DNA of 64,000 nucleotides from Acheta domesticus (Eukaryota > Arthropoda > Insecta > Orthoptera > Gryllidae), in contig JAHLJT010009436.1 in assembly GCA_031308135.1 (NCBI GenBank), forward strand, positions 215,301,420 through 215,365,419. Direction: 5' to 3'. The first letter of the stretch is position 1; every line of letters begins with the position of its first letter. The notes under the pieces are model-generated. The model was not told the DNA's origin. It worked only from the letters and a program-made list of their open reading frames with translations, and did no database searches. The position numbers and the translations under genes are program-made. This document shows, piece by piece, positions 5,374 to 61,890 of the stretch.

Positions 5374-5829
5374 TGTGGCGTGCCACCATTACTCCACACC
5401 GAAGGTTAGCGGCTTGCATCGGCAAGCACAACATCTCGGGGGCACAACCTCTAAAAAGTGCTGCCGCATGCAAGCGGGGACCAATATATACGAGACCCGC
5501 GGAGCCAGCAGGGGCAGACGGTACCATGCAGGGCAGACGGTACCATGCAGGGCAGACGGTACCATGCAGGGCAGACGGTACCATGCAGGGCAGACGGTAC
5601 CATGCGGAGCAGACGGAAGCAGTCCGGGATCATGTGAGACACTGGAGTCAGAAGCGTGTGTGAGAATCGTGAACGACGTGCACCAGGTCTCCATGATGAC
5701 TCGTTCGCAGAGTTCCGCCGCCGCCGCCGCTGCTGTCGTCTTCGCCGCGCCTGGACCACGGAGTGATGGGGTAAGAGGCCGCCACATCTGAGCTCGACTT
5801 CCCATATACTCCTTATCTGATTTATTGTT

Positions 5830-5874
<45 letters not shown>

Positions 5875-6032
5875 ATGCAACAGTAATAAATGGTGCATTA
5901 TTTGGAACATGACTTCTTCTTGAGAAAACTGCCCTCCCTTTAAAATCTCCCAAGTCAACCACAGTGCTCCAAAGTGACGCGCTGCCTAAGGAATACGCTG
6001 AAGTCAGTCAGCTCCGAGGGTGGCACGTCACA
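5374..6032 (+). repeat. 3' LTR
   Basis: Same landmarks as the 5' LTR: TGTGGCGTGCCACC start, ATATATA (5484-5490), CT microsatellite (about 5833-5871), AATAAA (5885-5890), and GGTGGCACGTCACA end. It is longer mainly because it carries five rather than two 19-bp units. The ATTC duplication follows directly. Confidence 0.85.
5513..5607 (+). repeat. 19-bp minisatellite inside the 3' LTR
   Basis: Five units of GGCAGACGGTACCATGCAG; the last ends in GGA. The 5' LTR has only two. Because LTRs are copied from one template, the difference of three units arose after insertion or during reverse transcription. Confidence 0.9.
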
Positions 6033-9200: not shown

Positions 9201-9529
9201 GCGAGCGAGAAATACCTGGCCGCGTTCCGATGTTCAAATTAACTCTTGCGTCAGAGCGTTTCTGCCCCGGCGAGATACACTCAGATAAACGAATATCTGT
9301 TCTGATTATAATAAAAGGGCATTTCTTTGGTAAAACTTAAACAAAATGAAATGTATGATTAATATGGCTTGTATGCAAAAGAAAATAACGTTTGTGTTAT
9401 TAAATGAACAAAATTTGAAAAAATTAATGCTGATATTGAAATTGATTTTTACACCAAGTTGTTAGAAAGTAAACATTTCCCAAACGAAGACATTATATTG
9501 TTCATTTATGTTCACCTTCACGATTCAAA

Positions 9530-9678
9530 ATATATCACTGCATAAATATAAAGCACCACTGACAACACTGGGGACTCTACCTAGAAAGTAATGAAATAGT
9601 ACTTCTTCTATATCTACACAAAATAGAAAGGTTTTCAAATGTGCAGCAATAAATGCAGTTGATAATGCGAACAACGTG
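9530..9678 (-). repeat. Dispersed repeat, inverted relative of 11033-11184
   Basis: Begins TATATCACTGCA and ends near GCGAACAACGTG. It matches the reverse complement of 11033-11184 along its length, including AAATGTG-GC-ATAAATGCAGTT, at perhaps 80% identity. It contains the loop and one arm of the hairpin at 10932-11243 but not the second arm. Confidence 0.75.
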
Positions 9679-9849
9679 CTCTGATGGACCCATAGTTTCT
9701 TGACTATCTTCAGTTACGATGTAAATGACATAGGGGTTCACTCTACACCTCTCCTAAATTATCCGCTAATTCGGCAGCGCCAGCAATCCGCACGAGAACT
9801 TTCGGAACAAGGCGATACCTTCGCAATTACGGGTCAAAGGAAGATTACC

Positions 9850-10360
9850 CCGAAATGAACGAAAGGCGCCGCTTCATCAGACGAGAAGAGAGAACACGTG
9901 AGCCCGCGCAGAGGCGCCCAATCTATTTGCAGACAGCCTCCCTCCCTCCCTTCCTTCCTTCCTTCCCACGGGACGAGCCGAGCACGACACACAGACAAAG
10001 GCCACGCGAATACCGGGCGTCGGCTCATGTTATGCACGCGGCGCACCACCACCTCTCGTCGACCCCACCGACGGTGCTGCCGTCTGTCGGGAGGATACCG
10101 GAGCGCGCGAGCGCGCGCGCGAGGGACTTCCCCGACGCTAACTAGTCTGCGCGCCGCCGCCGCCACCGCCACCGCCCGCCCGCGCGCGCGCACAAGTGGA
10201 TTTGGGGGCAAGGTTCTCCGCTTTCATGTGGCTCGCGCCGCCCTCAGCGCCACCCCGCCCCTACGCCCTCAGGCTTTGTCTGCGGGACTCGAGCCCGTGT
10301 GTTGATTCAGTGGGTAGGATTGCGGGCGGAGACGTCGTCGACGGCGGCGGCGGCGGCGGA

Positions 10361-10391
<31 letters not shown>

Positions 10392-10510
10392 AGGAGGAGA
10401 GACGGAAGGGCTGGCGGCGGCGGCGGCTCCGGCGCAGGCCTCAAAGACGGCCCAACTGTTTGGATGGGCGACGCGAGGCCCGCCCGGAGACTAATCTCCA
10501 CTAAAGCTCA
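9850..10510. other. CpG island with (GGC)n and alternating GC runs
   Basis: Contains a CCTT/CCCT-type run (about 9940-9967), alternating GCGCGC (10102-10122, 10178-10190) and a (GGC/GGT)n tract (10342-10392). Poly-Gly/Ala frames reflect the trinucleotide tract. No supported gene. Confidence 0.5.
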
Positions 10511-10931
10511 CATGTTCTGGTAATGAAATTCCTGTTCGGGCATTGACGATCGTCTCAGGTCCGGACACATTGCGTGAGAGCCAGAAGCTAAGAAGTGGAG
10601 GCCATAGGGGCGTCAGAGACGGTAAGGGAAACGAAGGCGACGTGTGTGATGCCACAAGATAGAGAAGTGTCTTAGATGTCAAGACAGCGAGATGTAGAAG
10701 AACAGTGGGGGTAATCAGGATGTTAGGACAGAAGGGACGGAGATAAGTTAGGTGAGTAGATCGCGACATTGGGAGAGCGGGAACGGTAGGTATTGGAGAA
10801 TTGATACAAAATTATCGGAGGAAATGGTTGGTAAGAGGAAGCAACAACTTGTTAAAGAGAGGCGACGTCAGTCCAATCGATACAAGTGTATCAGTTAAAC
10901 CGGAGTAATTGAAAACTGCTGTGAAAGTACG

Positions 10932-11243
10932 AGAATAAGAGGTCGAAGCGAAAACAGCGCAGACGAAAGGAACAGTGAAGGCGACACAGAGAATATATCA
11001 CTGCAGAAATATCAAGCACCATTCACACTTGACACCTTGTTCGCATTATAAACTGCATTTATCGCAGCACATTTGAAAACATTTCTATTTGTTATAAATA
11101 CAGAGGAAGTATTATTTCAATCCTTTTTTAGGTACAGTCGTCAGTGTTGTCAATGGTGCTTAATATGCCTGCAGTGATATATTCTCTGTGTCGCCTTCAC
11201 TGTTACTTTCGTCTGCGCTGTTTTCGCTTCGCCCTCTTATTCT
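10932..11243. repeat. Imperfect hairpin, 92-bp inverted arms
   Basis: Arms 10932-11023 and 11152-11243 are reverse complements with about five mismatches in 92, separated by a 128-bp loop. Outer ends start AGAATAAGAGG; inner ends are AGCACCATT. If transcribed in either direction, the product would fold into a long hairpin. It may be a foldback MITE or an inverted duplication of a dispersed repeat, since 9530-9678 is homologous to the loop plus one arm. No clear target duplication was found. Confidence 0.85.
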
Positions 11244-25139: not shown

Positions 25140-25498
25140 GCGCGAGTCGATAATGGATTAACACGCATGCAACGACGCGCAGGTAATTGATAGGGACGCG
25201 TTAGCACGAAAACACGGCAAACATAAGCCTGAATTTTATCACACAATCGCATTCCTTCCAGATATACTTTTTTTTTCCTTCCTACAGTAACAATACATGC
25301 AGATAAGCATGGAGAAGAAATGTTTCGTCTGTCACTAGCACTCACAGATGTTATATTTAACGTCTAGACCCACAACGATCCTCGTGAACTATCTCTTACG
25401 TCTTATTCGAAATTCTCACTTGAAACGCTTCTCCATGCAGTGTCGCAATTGATGACACGATTTCAGAAACAAACACACTCGCTTTTAATAAATAACAG
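25140..25498. other. AT-rich sequence, nothing recognised
   Basis: No gene or repeat seen apart from a short poly-T run near 25270. Confidence 0.5.
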
Positions 25499-25499
25499 G

Positions 25500-25731
25500 C
25501 GATGATTCCAATCATAAGTCAAAAATTATATTTCGACAACAGACGTTTCGATCTCTTTTACAAGTTTCTCTTCAGTATATGAAACTATATTGTTAAAAGG
25601 TCTTTTAAAAACTCTATTGTTACAATTATAACAATATAATTTGTAATGTCGTTTCGGATACTGAAGACGATCTCGCAAGAGAAATAAACTGTCGTTGAAA
25701 TATAATTTTTGGCTTGTGACTGGAATCATCG
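25500..25731. mobile_element. 232-bp inverted-repeat element (MITE-like)
   Basis: The outer ends are 43-bp inverted repeats with about five mismatches, starting CGATGATTCCA and including AAAAATTATATTTC. Complementarity continues inward (CTTCAGTAT-GAAAC and CTATTGTTA/ATTGTTA), so nearly the whole element folds on itself. No open frame. Both arms carry CTGAAGA followed by GAAA-type sequence. A target duplication was not identified, so the transposon superfamily is unknown. Confidence 0.8.
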
Positions 25732-25969
25732 TTTGTTATTTTATTTATCCAATTTATCCAGTGAACTTGGATTTTTTTATACACTTACTGTTATTCACAA
25801 TCAATTATGATGAGTGCATAGGGACTGAGAGGAAGTTTACCCAACTGTCACGAAGTGACATTAATAGAACCGGTAACGTAACTTGATTTTTAACGCCAGC
25901 TCGTTTTTTCGACAAATAGGCGCCGTTGAAACGTGCCGTGTGTTTTACTTTTATAGCTGAGGCTTGTCG

Positions 25970-31261: not shown

Positions 31262-32242
31262 GTGGCGAGCGGTGAGGCTAGCGGTGAGGCTAGCGGTGAG
31301 GCTAGCGGTGAGGCTAGCGGTGAGGCTAGCGGTGAGGCTAGCGGTGAGGCGAGCGGTGAGGCGAGCGGTGAGGCTAGCGGTGAGGCGAGCGGTGAGGCGA
31401 GCGGTGAGGCGAGCGGTGAGGCGAGCGGTGAGGCGAGCGGTGAGGCGAGCGGTGAGGCGAGCGGTGAGGCTAGCGGTGAGGCGAGCGGTGAGGCGAGCGG
31501 TGAGGCGAGCGGTGAGGCTAGCGGTGAGGCTAGCGGTGAGGCGAGCGGTGAGGCGAGCGGTGAGGCGAGCGGTGAGGCGAGCGGTGAGGCGAGCGGTGAG
31601 GCGAGCGGTGAGGCGAGCGGTGAGGCGAGCGGTGAGGCGAGCGGTGAGGCGAGCGGTGAGGCGAGCGGTGAGACTTGCACTGAGGCGTGTGGTGTGGCGT
31701 GTAGTGTGCCTTGCGGTGTGGTTTTGGGTGGCATTCGGTGTGGCAAACGGTGTGGTAAACGGTGTGGCGAGTGATGAGACGTGTAGTGAAGTGATTGGTG
31801 TGACAGCCGTTGTGGCGAGCAGCATGGCGGGCAGTGTTGCGAACGGCGTGTGAGTGGTAGGGGGACCCGCGTAGCGTAGCAAGGGATGTGATGAGCGGAG
31901 AGACGAGTGGTGTGGGGAGCGTCGTGGCAAACTGTGTGGCGGCAGGACTTCGAGCGGCGCACCGCTCGCGGCAAAACGCCGAGGCGAGCAATGAAGCGAG
32001 GAGTGTTGCAAGTGGAGTCGCTAGCGATATGACGGGCGGTGAGTCTATTGGTGTGGCGGGCGTTGCGGCGAAAGGTGTAGAGAGTAGCGATGTGGCGAGC
32101 GGTGAGACGCGTGGTATGGTGACTTGGGGAGAACGGTGTAGTGAGGGATGTGATGAGCGGTCAGACGTGTGGTGTAGGGAGCGTGGTGACAAACGGTGTG
32201 GCGGCAGTACTTCGAACAGAGCATCGCTCGTGGCGAACGGCG
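31262..32242 (+). repeat. 12-bp minisatellite, perfect core and decayed flank
   Basis: 31271-31666 holds 33 consecutive units GGTGAGGC(T/G)AGC; the T variant occupies units 1-6, 9, 17, 21 and 22. From 31667 to 32242 the same 12-bp rhythm continues as degenerate units such as GGTGTGGCGAGC and GGTGTGGCAAAC. Since 12 is a multiple of three, all six phases can stay open: GEAS repeats on the plus strand and SPLA or RLTA repeats on the minus strand (frames up to 311 codons). Coding is therefore doubtful. The array resumes at 34099 beyond the inserted transposon. Confidence 0.95.
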
Positions 32243-34098
32243 CACAGTGTGTAATTTTGACGATCTAGGAAGAAAAAATTAATAACTCTCTTTGAAATGA
32301 ATTTCTCGTAGTTTTTGGAGGTCTGTTGAATGAATAATGTCCAAAGAAACAAATCTGCTCGTAAAACTTAAATTTTTACAAAATAGTTTGTAAAATATTT
32401 AGGAAATTTGAATACTTTAATTAGCCTTCATGACAGCATACGTTTTTCAAACGCTGAATTTGTTTAACTCTATTGGACATAATATTTGAATTTTACAAAA
32501 CATACTATGCAAGAAAAATGAAATGAAAGTATACAAAACTAAAAAGCCGAAAATGAAAAAATGAAAACAAAAATTAAGCGAGAGGAATGTACAACAAATA
32601 TTTTCAAATTAGTTTGAAACACTACCCGCGTATTCTTCTGATGGTGATTCTTCTAAATATGCCGTCTCTTTTTTGCCTTATTCCTTCATTCTAATAACAC
32701 GAAAAGTTCATGTTTCACTTTTTTGGGTGCAGTTATAGTTTTGGTGCTTATGCTGGACTTGAATGGATCTGAGCTAATAAGCAGCCGGTGGAGCAAATTC
32801 ATATTTGCGTTTGCTCTTGACGTTTTTCTAGTTCTTTTTCGCCACTTTCGCTTTATTTTATTCTACTCTCACTAGCCATATTCGTATTTCTGAACGATAA
32901 GAAATGTGCAAAATGCATTCAAAATCTTTTTTTTTTGTTGGTATGTCTACATACTGGCGGGTTGAAATATTGATATCCATCATTAAAGCAAGTGACAATG
33001 ATGCAAGCTTTTGAAAAATGGATCTTCGAGCTTTGTTAATTGTAATTCTCCTATTGGAAGAATGTTCACGGAGCTCCTTACCTATAGCTGCCACATATCT
33101 TTTTGTCATACTTCCTTAGTTTGATTTCAATAGCTATGGATAACTTTTCTGAGCTAGTAGTGTCTGCAAAATGTTTCAATTGAATGGTTTTAGCTTTAAT
33201 CCCACAGTACCTGAAAGACTCATTAGGTCTTCTAGCTCTATTAATTTTTACATTTATTTGTGATGGACCTGGGACTGCCTCTAACATTTAATCAGGAAGG
33301 GTAAGAGTTCCTTGTAGCCAGGACGAATTATATTTCAAGAACGACTCTTTACATCTTACGGAGTTTTGCAATGCGGTTTCAACTTTTTCACAAATACATC
33401 TAACGTAAGACTTAATTTTGTCCAAAAATGCTTTGTGAGGTTCTATAATTCTTAATTCACGTAAGAAAACATTTAATGCAGCTACAAATCTCTTATCAAT
33501 TGAATTTGTTACTCATATATCAAATAACAACCTGCGGGTATCTTGAAGACTCTTTCTGTAAAATGTATATATAATTCAGATAAGCAGGTATAAGCAGCTA
33601 GTCTTTTCACGATTAAGAACCCAAAAGTACTAGTTTTAAAATGTATATGGCCCGAAAGGTGTATAATGGTGTATAATACACTAAAACTCTAATTGAATTT
33701 AGAGAACGTGTAATTCATTCAATTTAAATCGCTCACCTTTTCCATTAACTTTTTAGGTACATCAAAAATAAATATTTAAATTTTATCCACATAAAAATAA
33801 TCGTAAAAGCATGTAGATTACTAATAGTAAACCCACAATCACAGAATGAGACGAGTAGTGTATTCCTACCAAGAGAACTTAACGGACTGAAAAGGGTCAT
33901 TCGGAGCTGAGCGCTGGCGGAGCGGCGATGGACGTCTTTGGACATGCACCATGGGGTCCTTGTGACCTTCAAGAGAAAACTAACAACGTTTCCACATAGT
34001 TCAGACATTCTACTACACAGAAATATAACGATTTTGCTATTTTAATTCAGTCGAAAATTGAATTTTTTCCAGCTAGTTGGCCAAAATTACACACTGTG
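32243..34098 (-). mobile_element. Transib-like DNA transposon relic
   Basis: Terminal inverted repeats of about 38 bp with 32 identities; the first 17 (CACAGTGTGTAATTTTG) are perfect. The 5-bp CGGCG flanks both ends (32238-32242 and 34099-34103). Removing the element and one CGGCG restores the 12-bp rhythm of the surrounding minisatellite. A 5-bp GC-rich duplication and termini beginning CAC are hallmarks of the Transib superfamily, relatives of RAG1; here the first seven bases equal the vertebrate recombination-signal heptamer CACAGTG. At 1,856 bp it is shorter than typical autonomous copies (about 3 kb). Orientation follows the transposase remnant. Confidence 0.8.
32858..33650 (-). pseudogene. 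Broken Transib (RAG1-like) transposase fragment
   Basis: Minus-strand coding traces run in three phases: about 33650-33510 (weak), 33512-33078 with one in-frame TAA at 33288, and 33109-32858. The middle part has ARRPNESF followed by basic residues and SSEKLSIAIEIKLR; the last has ASLSLALMMDINISTRQY. From memory of the family, these fit the GRPxxSFExxSxRTKRR... and ...EALALxVxAxLSxxQY segments of the Transib N-terminal half, in the right order and spacing. The C-terminal half with the catalytic acidic residues is not detectable in the remaining 600 bp. At least two frameshifts and one stop make it inactive. Identification rests on motif recall, not a database search. Confidence 0.6.
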
Positions 34099-34262
34099 CG
34101 GCGTGGCGAACGGCGTGGCGAGCGGTGAGGCTATTGGTGTGGCGATGCGGCGAGCAGTGAGACGTGTGGTGTGGTGATTGGTGTGGCGAGCGTAGTGGTG
34201 AACGATGTGGCGAGCAGCCTGGCGGACGGCGTGGCGAGCGATGTGGCGGAAGACAGCGTGGC
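34099..34262 (+). repeat. 12-bp minisatellite, continuation
   Basis: Degenerate GGTGTGGCGAGC-type units in the same orientation and phase as 31262-32242, separated from them by the transposon. They fade out after GATGTGGCGGAAGAC. Confidence 0.85.
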
Positions 34263-34524: not shown

Positions 34525-35455
34525 ATCGCTTGGACTGTACACAGATATACACTTTTAAATAAATTCAGGTCTATATATTTTCGTTGTTAATATCCAACAG
34601 GTACAATTCACCCAATACGCCTGGCGTATAACAGAGGTAAAAAGCCAATAAATAAATTATTATATTTATAATTGTCACCATTACCGTTTCGTCCCGGTCG
34701 GGTCGACCAATTCTTTGAACAAATTTAATAATTATTATAATATATATACCCAATATTTCTAGTTTTAAATTACATACTGTTTGCTTTTGTAATAGTTGTT
34801 ACTTTTCAGTTACTCAAAACTAGATTAAGAGAAATTAACATTTACTTCACAGTTTCTGATTTTGGCATGCAGTCTTTTTGTGGTAGTCTTTGAAGATGAA
34901 ATGATCCGAAATAAGAATACAAAAATTACACGTCGTTTGAATCAGACTGGGTTATCCAGAATCGTCGGCAAGGATACCCACGCCACCTGCACAAGGGCAT
35001 TGAGGGCAAATGGCTTTTGTCTGCAATAATCGCTCAGAAAAAATTGAAATCACAGTATTTCGCATGCACCTCTAAATGTACTTACGCACATTGCAGCGAA
35101 ATATTTGTTACTTCAAAAATAAACAGTTTGATGTATTTCGTATTTACATTTTCATAAGTGCTTATCAGACAAGCAAATTCATTTCACCACCACATTGTAA
35201 AAATGACGTCTGTGGTCTGCAAGTCGTCAAAGGTTATTTTCGACATGCACTATAAGATTGATAGGAACGTTGATGATACAGCCACCAGTATTCTTAATAC
35301 ACTTTTTTTAATCTTTGTTCGAACGCAGTGAAGCATCGTTTGAATCATCGAACAAACGAAGGTTATTCGCCTCATCGTCACACTCAATCTTCCACAACAC
35401 TACTTGTCTCGTAGAGACCACATCCACACTGTACCCAGCACAGTAACAGAATTGC
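34525..35455. other. AT-rich sequence, nothing recognised
   Basis: No gene, tandem repeat or inverted repeat seen. Confidence 0.5.
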
Positions 35456-38849: not shown

Positions 38850-41350
38850 AGTCAAAGGCTGATGCTGCACTGATAATACTAGTGTCATGACGACTAGTCA
38901 TGACTCAGCAAAAGAGTTTCAATACGTTGACCAAGATAGTATCATCGACGACAATGTCTGTGTACATCTAGAAATCAAAATGTAACTGATGGAATTATTT
39001 GGTCAGTTGCCTAATTCGTGGAGGATGATTTACAGTTCATGAAGGACCACGCAGTGTAGGAGAGAAGAGCTTGAAAAAAGCTACAACATTTAATTAAGAA
39101 GATATGACATACAAGTTTTTGAACATGAAGTAAAACTAATATCTGTGTCTGTAGGAAAAGAATGAAATACAACTAACCTACAAGTTGCCGCCGAGTTTAA
39201 GATGCGGCCAACTGTGGCGCGGTTGAATGACAAATTTTCAAACAGAGAAGAGTAGACCGCAGAAAGAACGCTGTCAACCATGGTCATTCTTTGCAGAGCA
39301 TGTGGCACAGAAGTAGCAAACCTCGAGACACGAACAAGAAAGACACGTCTTCAGAATTCCTTCCGCTCCACTACTGCGGTTATTCCGTGAGAAGTGATTT
39401 ACATCCCTATTTGCTACTTCCACTGGGACAGTCGCTTCCTTCAGAGTAATGGAGTAATAAGGCAACACTAACTTCTTTTTAGAAGATTAATTGCTCAAGA
39501 AATATTTCGCTCAGAATGCAAGAAATCACGAGCAGAAAGATATGTCAGTGCATACATCGTAAATTATATACAGACGCAAATTTTACACAAATACACAATA
39601 AATACACAGATTCTCGTTACTTATAAAAATGTTAAGTCGTGGATTCTCCTTCACAACATAAAAGTTTGAAAATTTTACAAGCAAAAATTCGTATTTGATT
39701 ACCTGAACATATACCAACCATGCAAATAGTCTCCATTTAAACATAACTTATACATTGAAGTTAATAACGGTTTATATCGAGTTATCTGTCAATAAAACAT
39801 CAAAAGCTGGCGGAGAGTCCAACAAACATTGTATTACCAACACAAATCAGCAAACTATTTCAGACTACGAAAATGTGAGAAAATGTATAATAATAAGGTA
39901 CATAAAACCAAAGCCCCTTAATAAATTAACGATTATTTTGCAGTATAAAATTAATCAACAATGAAACAAAGATCGAGAATATCCTCTCAACGATTCAAAT
40001 TGTTTCAACATTCCCATCCACGTCAATTCTGTCACCCAACCCCTCAACCCAACAACCACGTGGCTGTCCTCGGCGGGCCGTATTCCATGTAATTCGCTGA
40101 ATCAATATTGCCGCTCGTGCTAGAAGTGCTCAAATTGAGGCAAACAAAATACAGTCCAAAAATCTGGATTATTTGAATAAGACAGGGCTGCTCGTTGTCC
40201 TAACAAGGTTTGTGTTTCCTGGACGAATGTTAACAAACAGGATGCAAAAGAGAGTAACAAACAGAAGCGTATTTTAAAAAAAAATCGCGTTGCAAATGTT
40301 GAAGAAACGACACTGATGTTGCGATGAATATTTCCAGACTGAATGTACATATTTTGAAGACAGCAATTGATAGGTACTACAATAAGTTTCGAAAGATAGG
40401 GAGCAGCACACAAATACTATCAGTTCCCAAGTAATGATATCTCAAAACTTGAATGCATAATGCATCAAACACCAATATTAATCATGAATAGCTTCTAGAT
40501 ATTTGACGCGGTGAATATTACTTCATCGGAAATCCAATATAATTAAATCATACAATACAAACAAGACAATGTGTAATGCATCCTGAAAGTTTTCCTCACC
40601 TTGTGTTTTCTTCTTTGGTCTTGTGAAGTGCAAAATTTGGATATTGCAATGATTTGGAGGAAAAATTACATGAATAGTAAAATAGTAGTATATGACCTGT
40701 CTGATGGGAAGACGATCCTAGTCCCTGCTATCGCAGGTTATGTAAAACAAAAATTTGACGGTCAATATGAGTAATAGCCTCTAGGGTAAAAGTATCAGTT
40801 AAGACCACTGATGAGAACATCTTCGTATTTTTCTTAACACTCTTGGACTGAAGTACTAAATTTGTTACGTTAAGCACGAGGGGCGACTAGCTTCTGAATA
40901 GAGCAATTGCCGCGATATGGTCAATTTCAATTTGTGGTATGTTTTATTTAATTTATTTCCAAACCCCGATTTTCATCAAGTACAGGCCACCTGAAAATTG
41001 TTAAATTGTCATAACACATTTTGACTCAGTAAAGGCTACTCACGATTCTACCCCTTGAACGTGTTTGAGAGACAGTCCCGTAAAGTACTGTTCATGTTAT
41101 ATTACTACAATGGCAATATTAATAAGTTTTCAACTTCTTATTTAAATATAAAAAGGGATAATAAATAATTGACGTTCTACTCGAGAAATATCCCCATGTT
41201 TCGCAAGTTTGAGGCAAGTGGGAAGCATATAACTCTCACATTTCAAATTTTGAACTAAGGGAGTGACCATTATTGGTGTCCTTAACCTATGTCCCCCATC
41301 TACTGTAACCAAGTAAATCACATGAGTTTGATGATTGATGGGGTGGGGAG
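38850..41350. other. AT-rich sequence, nothing recognised
   Basis: About 2.5 kb. Frames are at most 97 codons (40120-40413, minus) and match no family I recognise. Confidence 0.5.
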
Positions 41351-51196: not shown

Positions 51197-51801
51197 GAAT
51201 GGGTCAGTCCATATTAAATCAACACAGTTTTCTATCTCACCATTTTAGATTCAGATGAAATTTGACACATAGATAGTATGAATGAAGAACAAGAAAACCA
51301 CAAAGTTTGAGTAAAATATTTCCACCAGTTTGTGAAATATAGCCATGTAAATTTTACAAAATTAGGTTCCCGAAAAGTTTGAAATTGATGTAGAACCTCT
51401 CCAAATTAAGATAGAGAGCTGGAACAGGTGTCATTTTACAGCTTTCTTTATGGCCTTTTATAAGATATACAACTCAAAGGGGGTTGCGATCAAAAAGTTT
51501 TTCAAATTTGAATTTACAATTTTGATTTTGAGTTTCTTCAAAATGCTCATAAAAAAATTGAAAAAAATTCTAAAATAATCCCTATATGTTTCCAAACAGA
51601 TGGTGCAAGTTTAAAAATGGGACTGCAATGGATTCATATGGTAATCTTTACTTAAAATGCACAATATTTACATACTCTAGATTTTACTGATTTAAAATGC
51701 ATTTTATTCCACATTATAAGACCTAATATATACAAATTATTAATTTAGTGTTTTTTGTTGGTGAGTGTGTTGTGTTTTATTGTTATTGTTATTATTATTA
51801 C

Positions 51802-51856
<55 letters not shown>

Positions 51857-52541
51857 CCGCGGAACTTCATGCAATTGCATATTTTTATTGACTGTGCATA
51901 TCGAAAGAAAATGTATATAACTTTACCTATCACCAAAAATAAAACGAATCTACCCTATTTTTATTTTGCATGTATGCTATTTTTAGTTTAACTGCGTATT
52001 TTAATGTATGCCGTATATTTAAGTGCATATACTTCAGGTCTTATAATGTAAAATAAAATGCATTTCAAATCAGTAAAATCTAGAGTAAGTAAATATTGTG
52101 CATTTTAAGTAAAGATTACCACATGAACCCATTGCAGTCCCATTTTTAAACTTGCACCATCTGTTTCGAAACACTTAAGGATTATTTTAGAATTTTTTCA
52201 ATTTTTTTGAAGAAGAGCATTTTGAAGAAACTCAAAATCAAAATTTTAAATTCAAATTTGAAAAACATTTTGATCGCAACCCCCATTTAGTTGTATATCT
52301 TATAAAAGGCCATAAAGAAAGCTGTAAAATGACACCTGTTCCAGCTCCCTACCTTAATTTGGAGAAGTTCTACATCAATTTAAAAATGTTCGGGAACCGA
52401 ATTTTGTAAACTTTTACATGGCTGCATTTCACAAATGGGTGGAGACATTTACCTCAAAATGTGTAGTTTTCTGATTCTTCATTCATACTATCTAAAATGG
52501 TGAGGTAAAAAACTGTTGATTTAATATGGAATGACCCGAAT
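51197..52541. mobile_element. 1.34-kb foldback element with about 0.5-kb inverted arms
   Basis: The element spans 51201-52537. Ends are GGGTCAGTCCATATTAAATC and, reverse-complemented, GGGTCATTCCATATTAAATC. Arms of about 530 bp (51201 to about 51730, and about 52035-52537) pair along their length with scattered mismatches and small gaps. GAAT flanks both ends (51197-51200, 52538-52541), fitting a 4-bp target duplication. The roughly 300-bp centre holds an ATT microsatellite. No transposase frame. Superfamily not determined; a transcript would form a long dsRNA hairpin. Confidence 0.88.
51782..51855 (+). repeat. (ATT)n microsatellite in the foldback loop
   Basis: About 20 units of ATT, nearly perfect for the last 16. 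Frames across it read poly-Ile on both strands and are not genes. Confidence 0.95.
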
Positions 52542-60994: not shown

Positions 60995-61890
60995 CATGCC
61001 ATCCTTACATCTCTTCTGAGAATCTGCAGAAATAATGAGGTCCACAACAAGAATAAACGCTTTGTAAATTTTCTGCCAAATTCAATTATTGTTGATTTTT
61101 ATCCCCTTGGACTCTAGTTCAGTCTTGTAAATGTATGCGGCACACATTCCTTCCATTACACTGCTGAGGTACAATGCACCTAACTCATTCCAACCTCTCG
61201 TCTGTTCATGTAATCTCATGGGAAGGATGCGTCAATATCTTACATATTTATTTCCCCGAGTCCTTCGGGTACTCGCAGACAAGAATCGAGCAGCAGCTGC
61301 ATCCATCTCGCTATCAAAACAAACACTCTCCGGACAAGCGTAATATTCCATATTTAATGTTCCGCAGCCTTTACTGCACAACCGCAAACCCTCGACATGC
61401 ACAGGCACATCCCCCTTCGAAGACCTCACGCTCCCCCGCTAAGAGGGAAAATAGATTCGTAGGGCCTCTCCATTAAAAACCACGTCACGGCCGCAGCGAG
61501 CCTTTTATTATAAATGAAACATCCACGAAATTCATAGCATTGTGAACGCGCCCCCCCTCCCCAGTTGTCACCGTTACCACCATCGCCTCCACCACAGCCA
61601 ACATCTTATTGAGAACTAACCCCAACACCGCTGATGTCGCATTCACCAACAATACTACATGCAACCCCTGCTCCTCCTGCTGTACCAACACCGTGGACAT
61701 TAACCTTCCACAATGCTTTTTACTCCCATTGTTGCTTCTGCCTCCTTCCAGATCACCAACATATCGACCTCCCCTCGCACCTCTACCCCCTTCTCCCGCC
61801 TCCATTCTATTCCCTTTTCACCGCCGCCCCCAGCACCACATTCACCCCACCCTGTCGTGTGGAAGAAGCTCAAAACGCACTTAAGAGGCC
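60995..61890. other. Mixed and pyrimidine-rich sequence
   Basis: 61500-61850 is C/T-biased. Frames of 91-107 codons are Pro/Ser/Thr-rich and unrecognised. Confidence 0.45.

Follow-up and report, generated by a model that had tools for sequence, protein, structure and literature searches.

The window, which is the whole stretch of 64,000 nucleotides from Acheta domesticus that was analysed, contains an element of 1,856 bp with a GC content of 33% in comparison with 47% for the window (Table 1). Read inward, both of its ends open with CACAGTGTGTAATTTTG (17/17 identical), with the heptamer CACAGTG beginning at 32243 on the forward strand and at 34098 on the opposite strand, and further in they share CTAG (positions 23-26) and GAAAAAATT (positions 30-38). 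Identity across the terminal inverted repeat is 32 of 38 bp (84.2%), and an inverted-repeat search of the window returned it as arms of 44 nt at 84%, six flanking bases included. A first reading of the locus made from the sequence only had described CACAGTG at both ends within a 5-bp flanking duplication CGGCG and both were seen.

Table 1 Coordinates of the element, its ends, its target site and its transposase traces (positions are those of the window)
Feature	Position	Strand	Evidence
Transib-derived non-autonomous element	32243-34098	- (strand of transposase remnant)	Ends, inverted repeats, coding traces
Left target-site duplication CGGCG	32238-32242	.	5-bp collapse restores the 12-bp register at 12/12
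Right target-site duplication CGGCG	34099-34103	.	Flank comparison, collapse test
Left terminal inverted repeat	32243-32280	+	Begins with heptamer CACAGTG; GAAAAAATT as A-rich block (repeat positions 30-38)
Right terminal inverted repeat	34061-34098	-	Heptamer CACAGTG and A-rich block as at the left end
N-terminal transposase trace	32951-33551	-	P0123 residues 2-151 and 150-205; linked tblastn E 4.8e-24
Short middle transposase trace (FECILHISY block)	32867-32923	-	P0123 residues 450-468; 68% identity; E 7.1e-4
C-terminal transposase trace	32689-32862	-	P0103 residues 605-663; tblastn E 4e-8 (composition adjustment off); profile E 7.1e-12

Neither the heptamer alone nor a 17-bp inverted repeat alone is rare enough in this window to prove an element. 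CACAGTG occurs eight times in comparison with a shuffle mean of 3.84 and by itself is weak evidence, and perfect 17-bp inverted repeats within 4 kb form 15 clusters in the window, 10 of which fall in one hairpin at 51.2-52.5 kb. This background is what would favour an AT-rich island that holds an unrelated Transib pseudogene fragment and has an inverted repeat on its two sides by chance, a reading we nevertheless consider very improbable, as the shift in GC content, the ends of the repeat and a 5-bp register all coincide and enclose a Transib trace. What makes the call of an element decisive is the combination of the inverted repeat, the 5-bp duplication, the recovery of the 12-bp register when the empty site is rebuilt, and the enclosed transposase traces.

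A second copy of the element was not found in the window, with the exception of one match with 3 mismatches to the 17-bp end at 34848-34864, 750 bp to the right of the element (shuffle mean 0.12), which could be a lone decayed Transib end or chance. As no second copy was found, the ends of the element's family rest on a single insertion. The 17-bp end also matched 6 stretches in IMG/VR and 14 in prokaryotes, and these were set aside because approximately 30 matches are expected by chance (our own arithmetic for 17 bases, 257 billion bases, two strands and equal base frequencies).

The element is flanked on both sides by G-rich arrays in which related copies are spaced 12 bp apart, the right flank being scored additionally as a 24-bp array with 61% matches. 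A 12-bp minisatellite GGCGAGCGGTGA with 34 copies at 97% lies at 31264-31672 and is related to the array that hosts the insertion. We joined the two flanks after removing k bases from the right one, with k running from 0 to 12, and scored the 12-bp period across the joint. The period was restored at 12/12 for k = 5, in comparison with 2-6/12 at the 12 other values of k, and the 24-bp period gave 14/24 at k = 5 and 4-11/24 at the remaining values. The restored register stands out because the flanks themselves keep the 12-bp period only loosely, with a mean identity of 0.45 on the left and 0.62 on the right. The 5-bp length of the duplication is thus supported by the register and not by the CGGCG match alone. 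As to published target sites, CGNCG is given as the target motif of Trichoplusia ni Transib insertions into baculovirus (PMC4735498) and likewise as a Transib target motif in a table row (PMC5704228), while different GC-rich sites are known from further Transibs: the target duplication of HzTransib is GCTCG (PMC1852546), and for Drosophila hopper and transib2 the motif is CCANTGG, with 5 bp as the modal length in 532/533 and 7/7 insertions respectively (PMC3276498).

A first translated search, confined to proteins no longer than about 618 aa, had a single weak match that fell short of significance, P0001 (E 0.11). By sequence P0001 is a Transib protein, as it finds HzTransib at E 1.4e-126. Relatives were then collected outward from P0001 (the best 120 of 757 hits) and subsequently from P0103 (the best 120 of 262), giving a query set of 232 distinct Transib-like proteins from the listed matches, all of which descend from P0001, itself found using the coding trace. 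With these 232 queries in a tblastn search of the whole window at E 0.05 the element takes 253 HSPs from 159 proteins, all on the minus strand, and 7 HSPs lie elsewhere with a best E of 0.002. Among the latter, a possible second Transib fragment at 39575-39829 on the plus strand (5/232 proteins, best E 0.002) was rejected and judged to be chance, as the alignments inspected are short or weak, cross stops and fall in AT-rich sequence, and it has no surrounding inverted repeat of at least 24 nt. Two further outside matches lie near 516-884 and at 61585-61686.

Observed scores against the element were compared with the best scores from 200 dinucleotide shuffles of it. P0103 reached 66.6 bits against a best shuffled score of 26.2, P0072 45.1 against 25.4, P0054 38.1 against 24.6 and P0001 33.1 against 22.3, with P0103 giving a match of any kind in 188 of the 200 shuffled elements. 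A profile, A1, was built from 31 rows out of 120 proteins that were picked partly for having matched the window and is hence not blind. Against window fragments of at least 15 aa it placed 4 of 2,500 above the inclusion threshold, all within the element and on the minus strand, and the next-best fragment had an E of 1.6. As A1 finds HzTransib (6pqn) at E 5.4e-198, the family it represents is Transib. A Pfam search of the read-through trace gave nothing relevant and Transib was absent from two of the three PDB searches with single pieces of the trace, while the third, with the C-terminal trace, returned HzTransib 6pqn first at E 0.054. Named relatives among the listed matches come from moths, a butterfly, beetles, a fly, an aphid, an ant and bees. 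When viral contigs were searched for Transib, the 13 stretches matched by P0103 and the 30 matched by A1 yielded no confirmed case.

The best relative, P0123 (697 aa), aligns over residues 2-205, 450-468 and 622-665 (the last at E 2.6e-4), colinear along the minus strand. Two stops in frame and, near 33100, a change of frame interrupt its N-terminal match in the element, and a further change of reading frame separates the middle block from the C-terminal one. With composition adjustment on, the C-terminal trace is matched at 32820-32689 with E 1.8e-4. The sequence-only reading had placed a RAG1-like N-terminal trace on the minus strand within 32858-33650. The trace is there and the span is nearly right, with the N-terminal and middle traces running from 33551 to 32867, but the C-terminal trace at 32862-32689 went unmentioned and the likeness to RAG1 holds only through the distant similarity of Transib to RAG1. 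A translated search of the coding trace against Transib, the check proposed in that reading, gave matches of up to E 4.8e-24.

Residues 206-449 of P0123 (244 residues) have no counterpart, nor do residues 469-606 or thereabouts (138 residues, the start of the C-terminal trace being taken from the P0103 alignment), so that about 380 of the 697 residues are absent, the three catalytic positions included. P0123 carries three conserved motifs, KWGCDG (282-287), MIDGK (392-396) and SEEAQEARNK (599-608), which we take to be those bearing the DDE residues. The first two fall within the gap at 206-449, and of the third the final NK alone aligns in the C-terminal trace (P0103 numbering). In profile alignments the columns of the three motifs face CDG, YDEK and EGNE.GNK of RAG1, whose DDE residues are D600, D708 and E962 (PMC6941560). 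An autonomous Transib would have the catalytic D, D and E in an open frame, which this copy lacks, and with the catalytic positions missing and stops and frame changes in what remains it is unable to make an active transposase. The undamaged ends and duplication could in themselves suggest an autonomous, intact Transib; given the extent of the missing protein and the broken frames, that idea is refuted for this copy and we attach next to no weight to it.

A RAG-like (RAG1L/RAG2L) transposon would likewise have ends starting with CAC and 5-bp duplications (PMC7204232). We judge this reading highly unlikely for the present element, as the traces match Transib transposases over the N-terminus, the middle and the C-terminus, 1,856 bp gives little space for two genes, and the end consensus of protostome RAGL elements has AAA at positions 8-10 (PMC7204232) where the element has TGT. 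Our assignment to Transib draws support from the ends, from the GC-rich duplication of 5 bp and from the transposase traces. Among the hallmarks of the superfamily, inverted repeats starting with CAC and an RSS-like heptamer are found at both ends, the 5-bp GC-rich target-site duplication is there as CGGCG on each side, and a transposase of Transib type is present as a broken remnant only. We conclude that the element is almost certainly a cut-and-paste DNA transposon of the Transib superfamily that is now non-autonomous, and the call of a Transib-like transposon at 32238-34103 is in this way borne out by ends, duplication, register and coding traces.

Several other repeats were seen in the window. 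A second AT-rich element of 1,337 bp (28% GC, ends GGGTCAGTCC) occupies 51201-52537, with inverted arms of 200 nt at 94% and 186 nt at 90% and with GAAT on each side as a possible 4-bp duplication. Copies duplicated in direct orientation lie at 1697-2302 and 5374-6013, share exact blocks of up to 157 bp and each hold a simple-repeat tract and a CACAGTG. Nested inverted repeats at 9529-11243 (96 nt at 94%; 94 nt and 59 nt at 85%) are perhaps two small inverted-repeat elements, the one lying within the other, and an AT-rich, MITE-like inverted repeat of 252 bp with 53-nt arms at 87% is found at 25490-25741. A tRNA search and Rfam at gathering threshold gave no matches in the window.

Among known systems HzTransib of Helicoverpa zea (PDB 6pqn and five further entries) belongs by profile to the same superfamily, and its chain residues 423-461 align with the C-terminal trace of the element. 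It shares with the element a 5-bp duplication and long terminal inverted repeats, but is 3,518 bp in length with a deduced protein of 489 aa (PMC1852546), whereas the element has 1,856 bp and is broken. The unnamed proteins P0123, P0122, P0121, P0125 and P0103 of one Transib subfamily (tag lgn) are among the best matches to the N-terminal, middle and C-terminal traces; they measure 682-714 aa and, unlike the element, have the three conserved motifs. Transib N1, N2 and N3 of Anopheles gambiae are presumably non-autonomous copies, going by the convention for N names. The ends of these three are compared with RSSs in a figure legend and are asymmetric in the 12/23 manner, while the A-rich block of our element is equidistant from the heptamer at both ends (PMC8355894).

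The consensus vertebrate RSS consists of the heptamer CACAGTG, to which that of the element is identical, and the nonamer ACAAAAACC (PMC8289069). The nonamer is matched at best at 6/9 positions, with a spacer of 21 on the left and 23 on the right, a figure reached over 43 offsets in AT-rich sequence and uncontrolled, and a 12/23 pair as in vertebrate RSSs was not seen. The block GAAAAAATT begins 22 bp past the heptamer at the left and at the right end alike, an arrangement that fits the symmetric class of Transib ends. Transib ends reportedly received their first full description from Kapitonov and Jurka in 2005. Symmetric ends with spacers of 20-22 bp have been described, and some Transib heptamers and nonamers are the canonical RSS ones (PMC8355894), and a second paper says as much for both (PMC6941560). 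The sequence-only reading had seen value in the element for comparing Transib and RAG signal ends; the heptamer is indeed exact, but this value was overstated, since Transib heptamers identical to that of the RSS are already in print (PMC8355894, PMC6941560) and the best nonamer match is 6/9, uncontrolled. It is conceivable, though unlikely, that vertebrate RAG, in addition to Transib transposase, would cut the ends of this subfamily, with their exact RSS heptamer and the A-rich block on both sides. If true, these would be naturally occurring invertebrate ends that stand where the symmetric ends of Transib and the asymmetric RSSs meet.

The history that we propose begins with an ancestral copy that was roughly 3 kb long, a length we infer by adding the missing coding sequence, about 1.15 kb, to the present 1,856 bp. 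This copy would have lost two internal stretches of the transposase, all three catalytic residues among them, and kept its ends. Its movement would have needed transposase supplied in trans: by analogy with the known behaviour of Transib and RAG, the transposase of a full-length relative may have bound both ends and cut beside the CAC of each heptamer, and the ends would have been joined with a 5-bp stagger to a GC-rich target, in this case the 12-bp repeat array, producing the CGGCG duplication. The deletions may have occurred before or after the insertion, as both orders fit an element that shows the product of the reaction only.

The element belongs to a well-known kind and is a decayed, internally deleted copy of Transib, and the accepted picture of Transib and RAG1 is unchanged by it. 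Its significance is mainly for genome annotation, as a decayed Transib derivative with an exact target duplication. One more end sequence with the canonical RSS heptamer joins those already described, and the family of the element, if collected, could be a substrate set for comparing end recognition by Transib and RAG.
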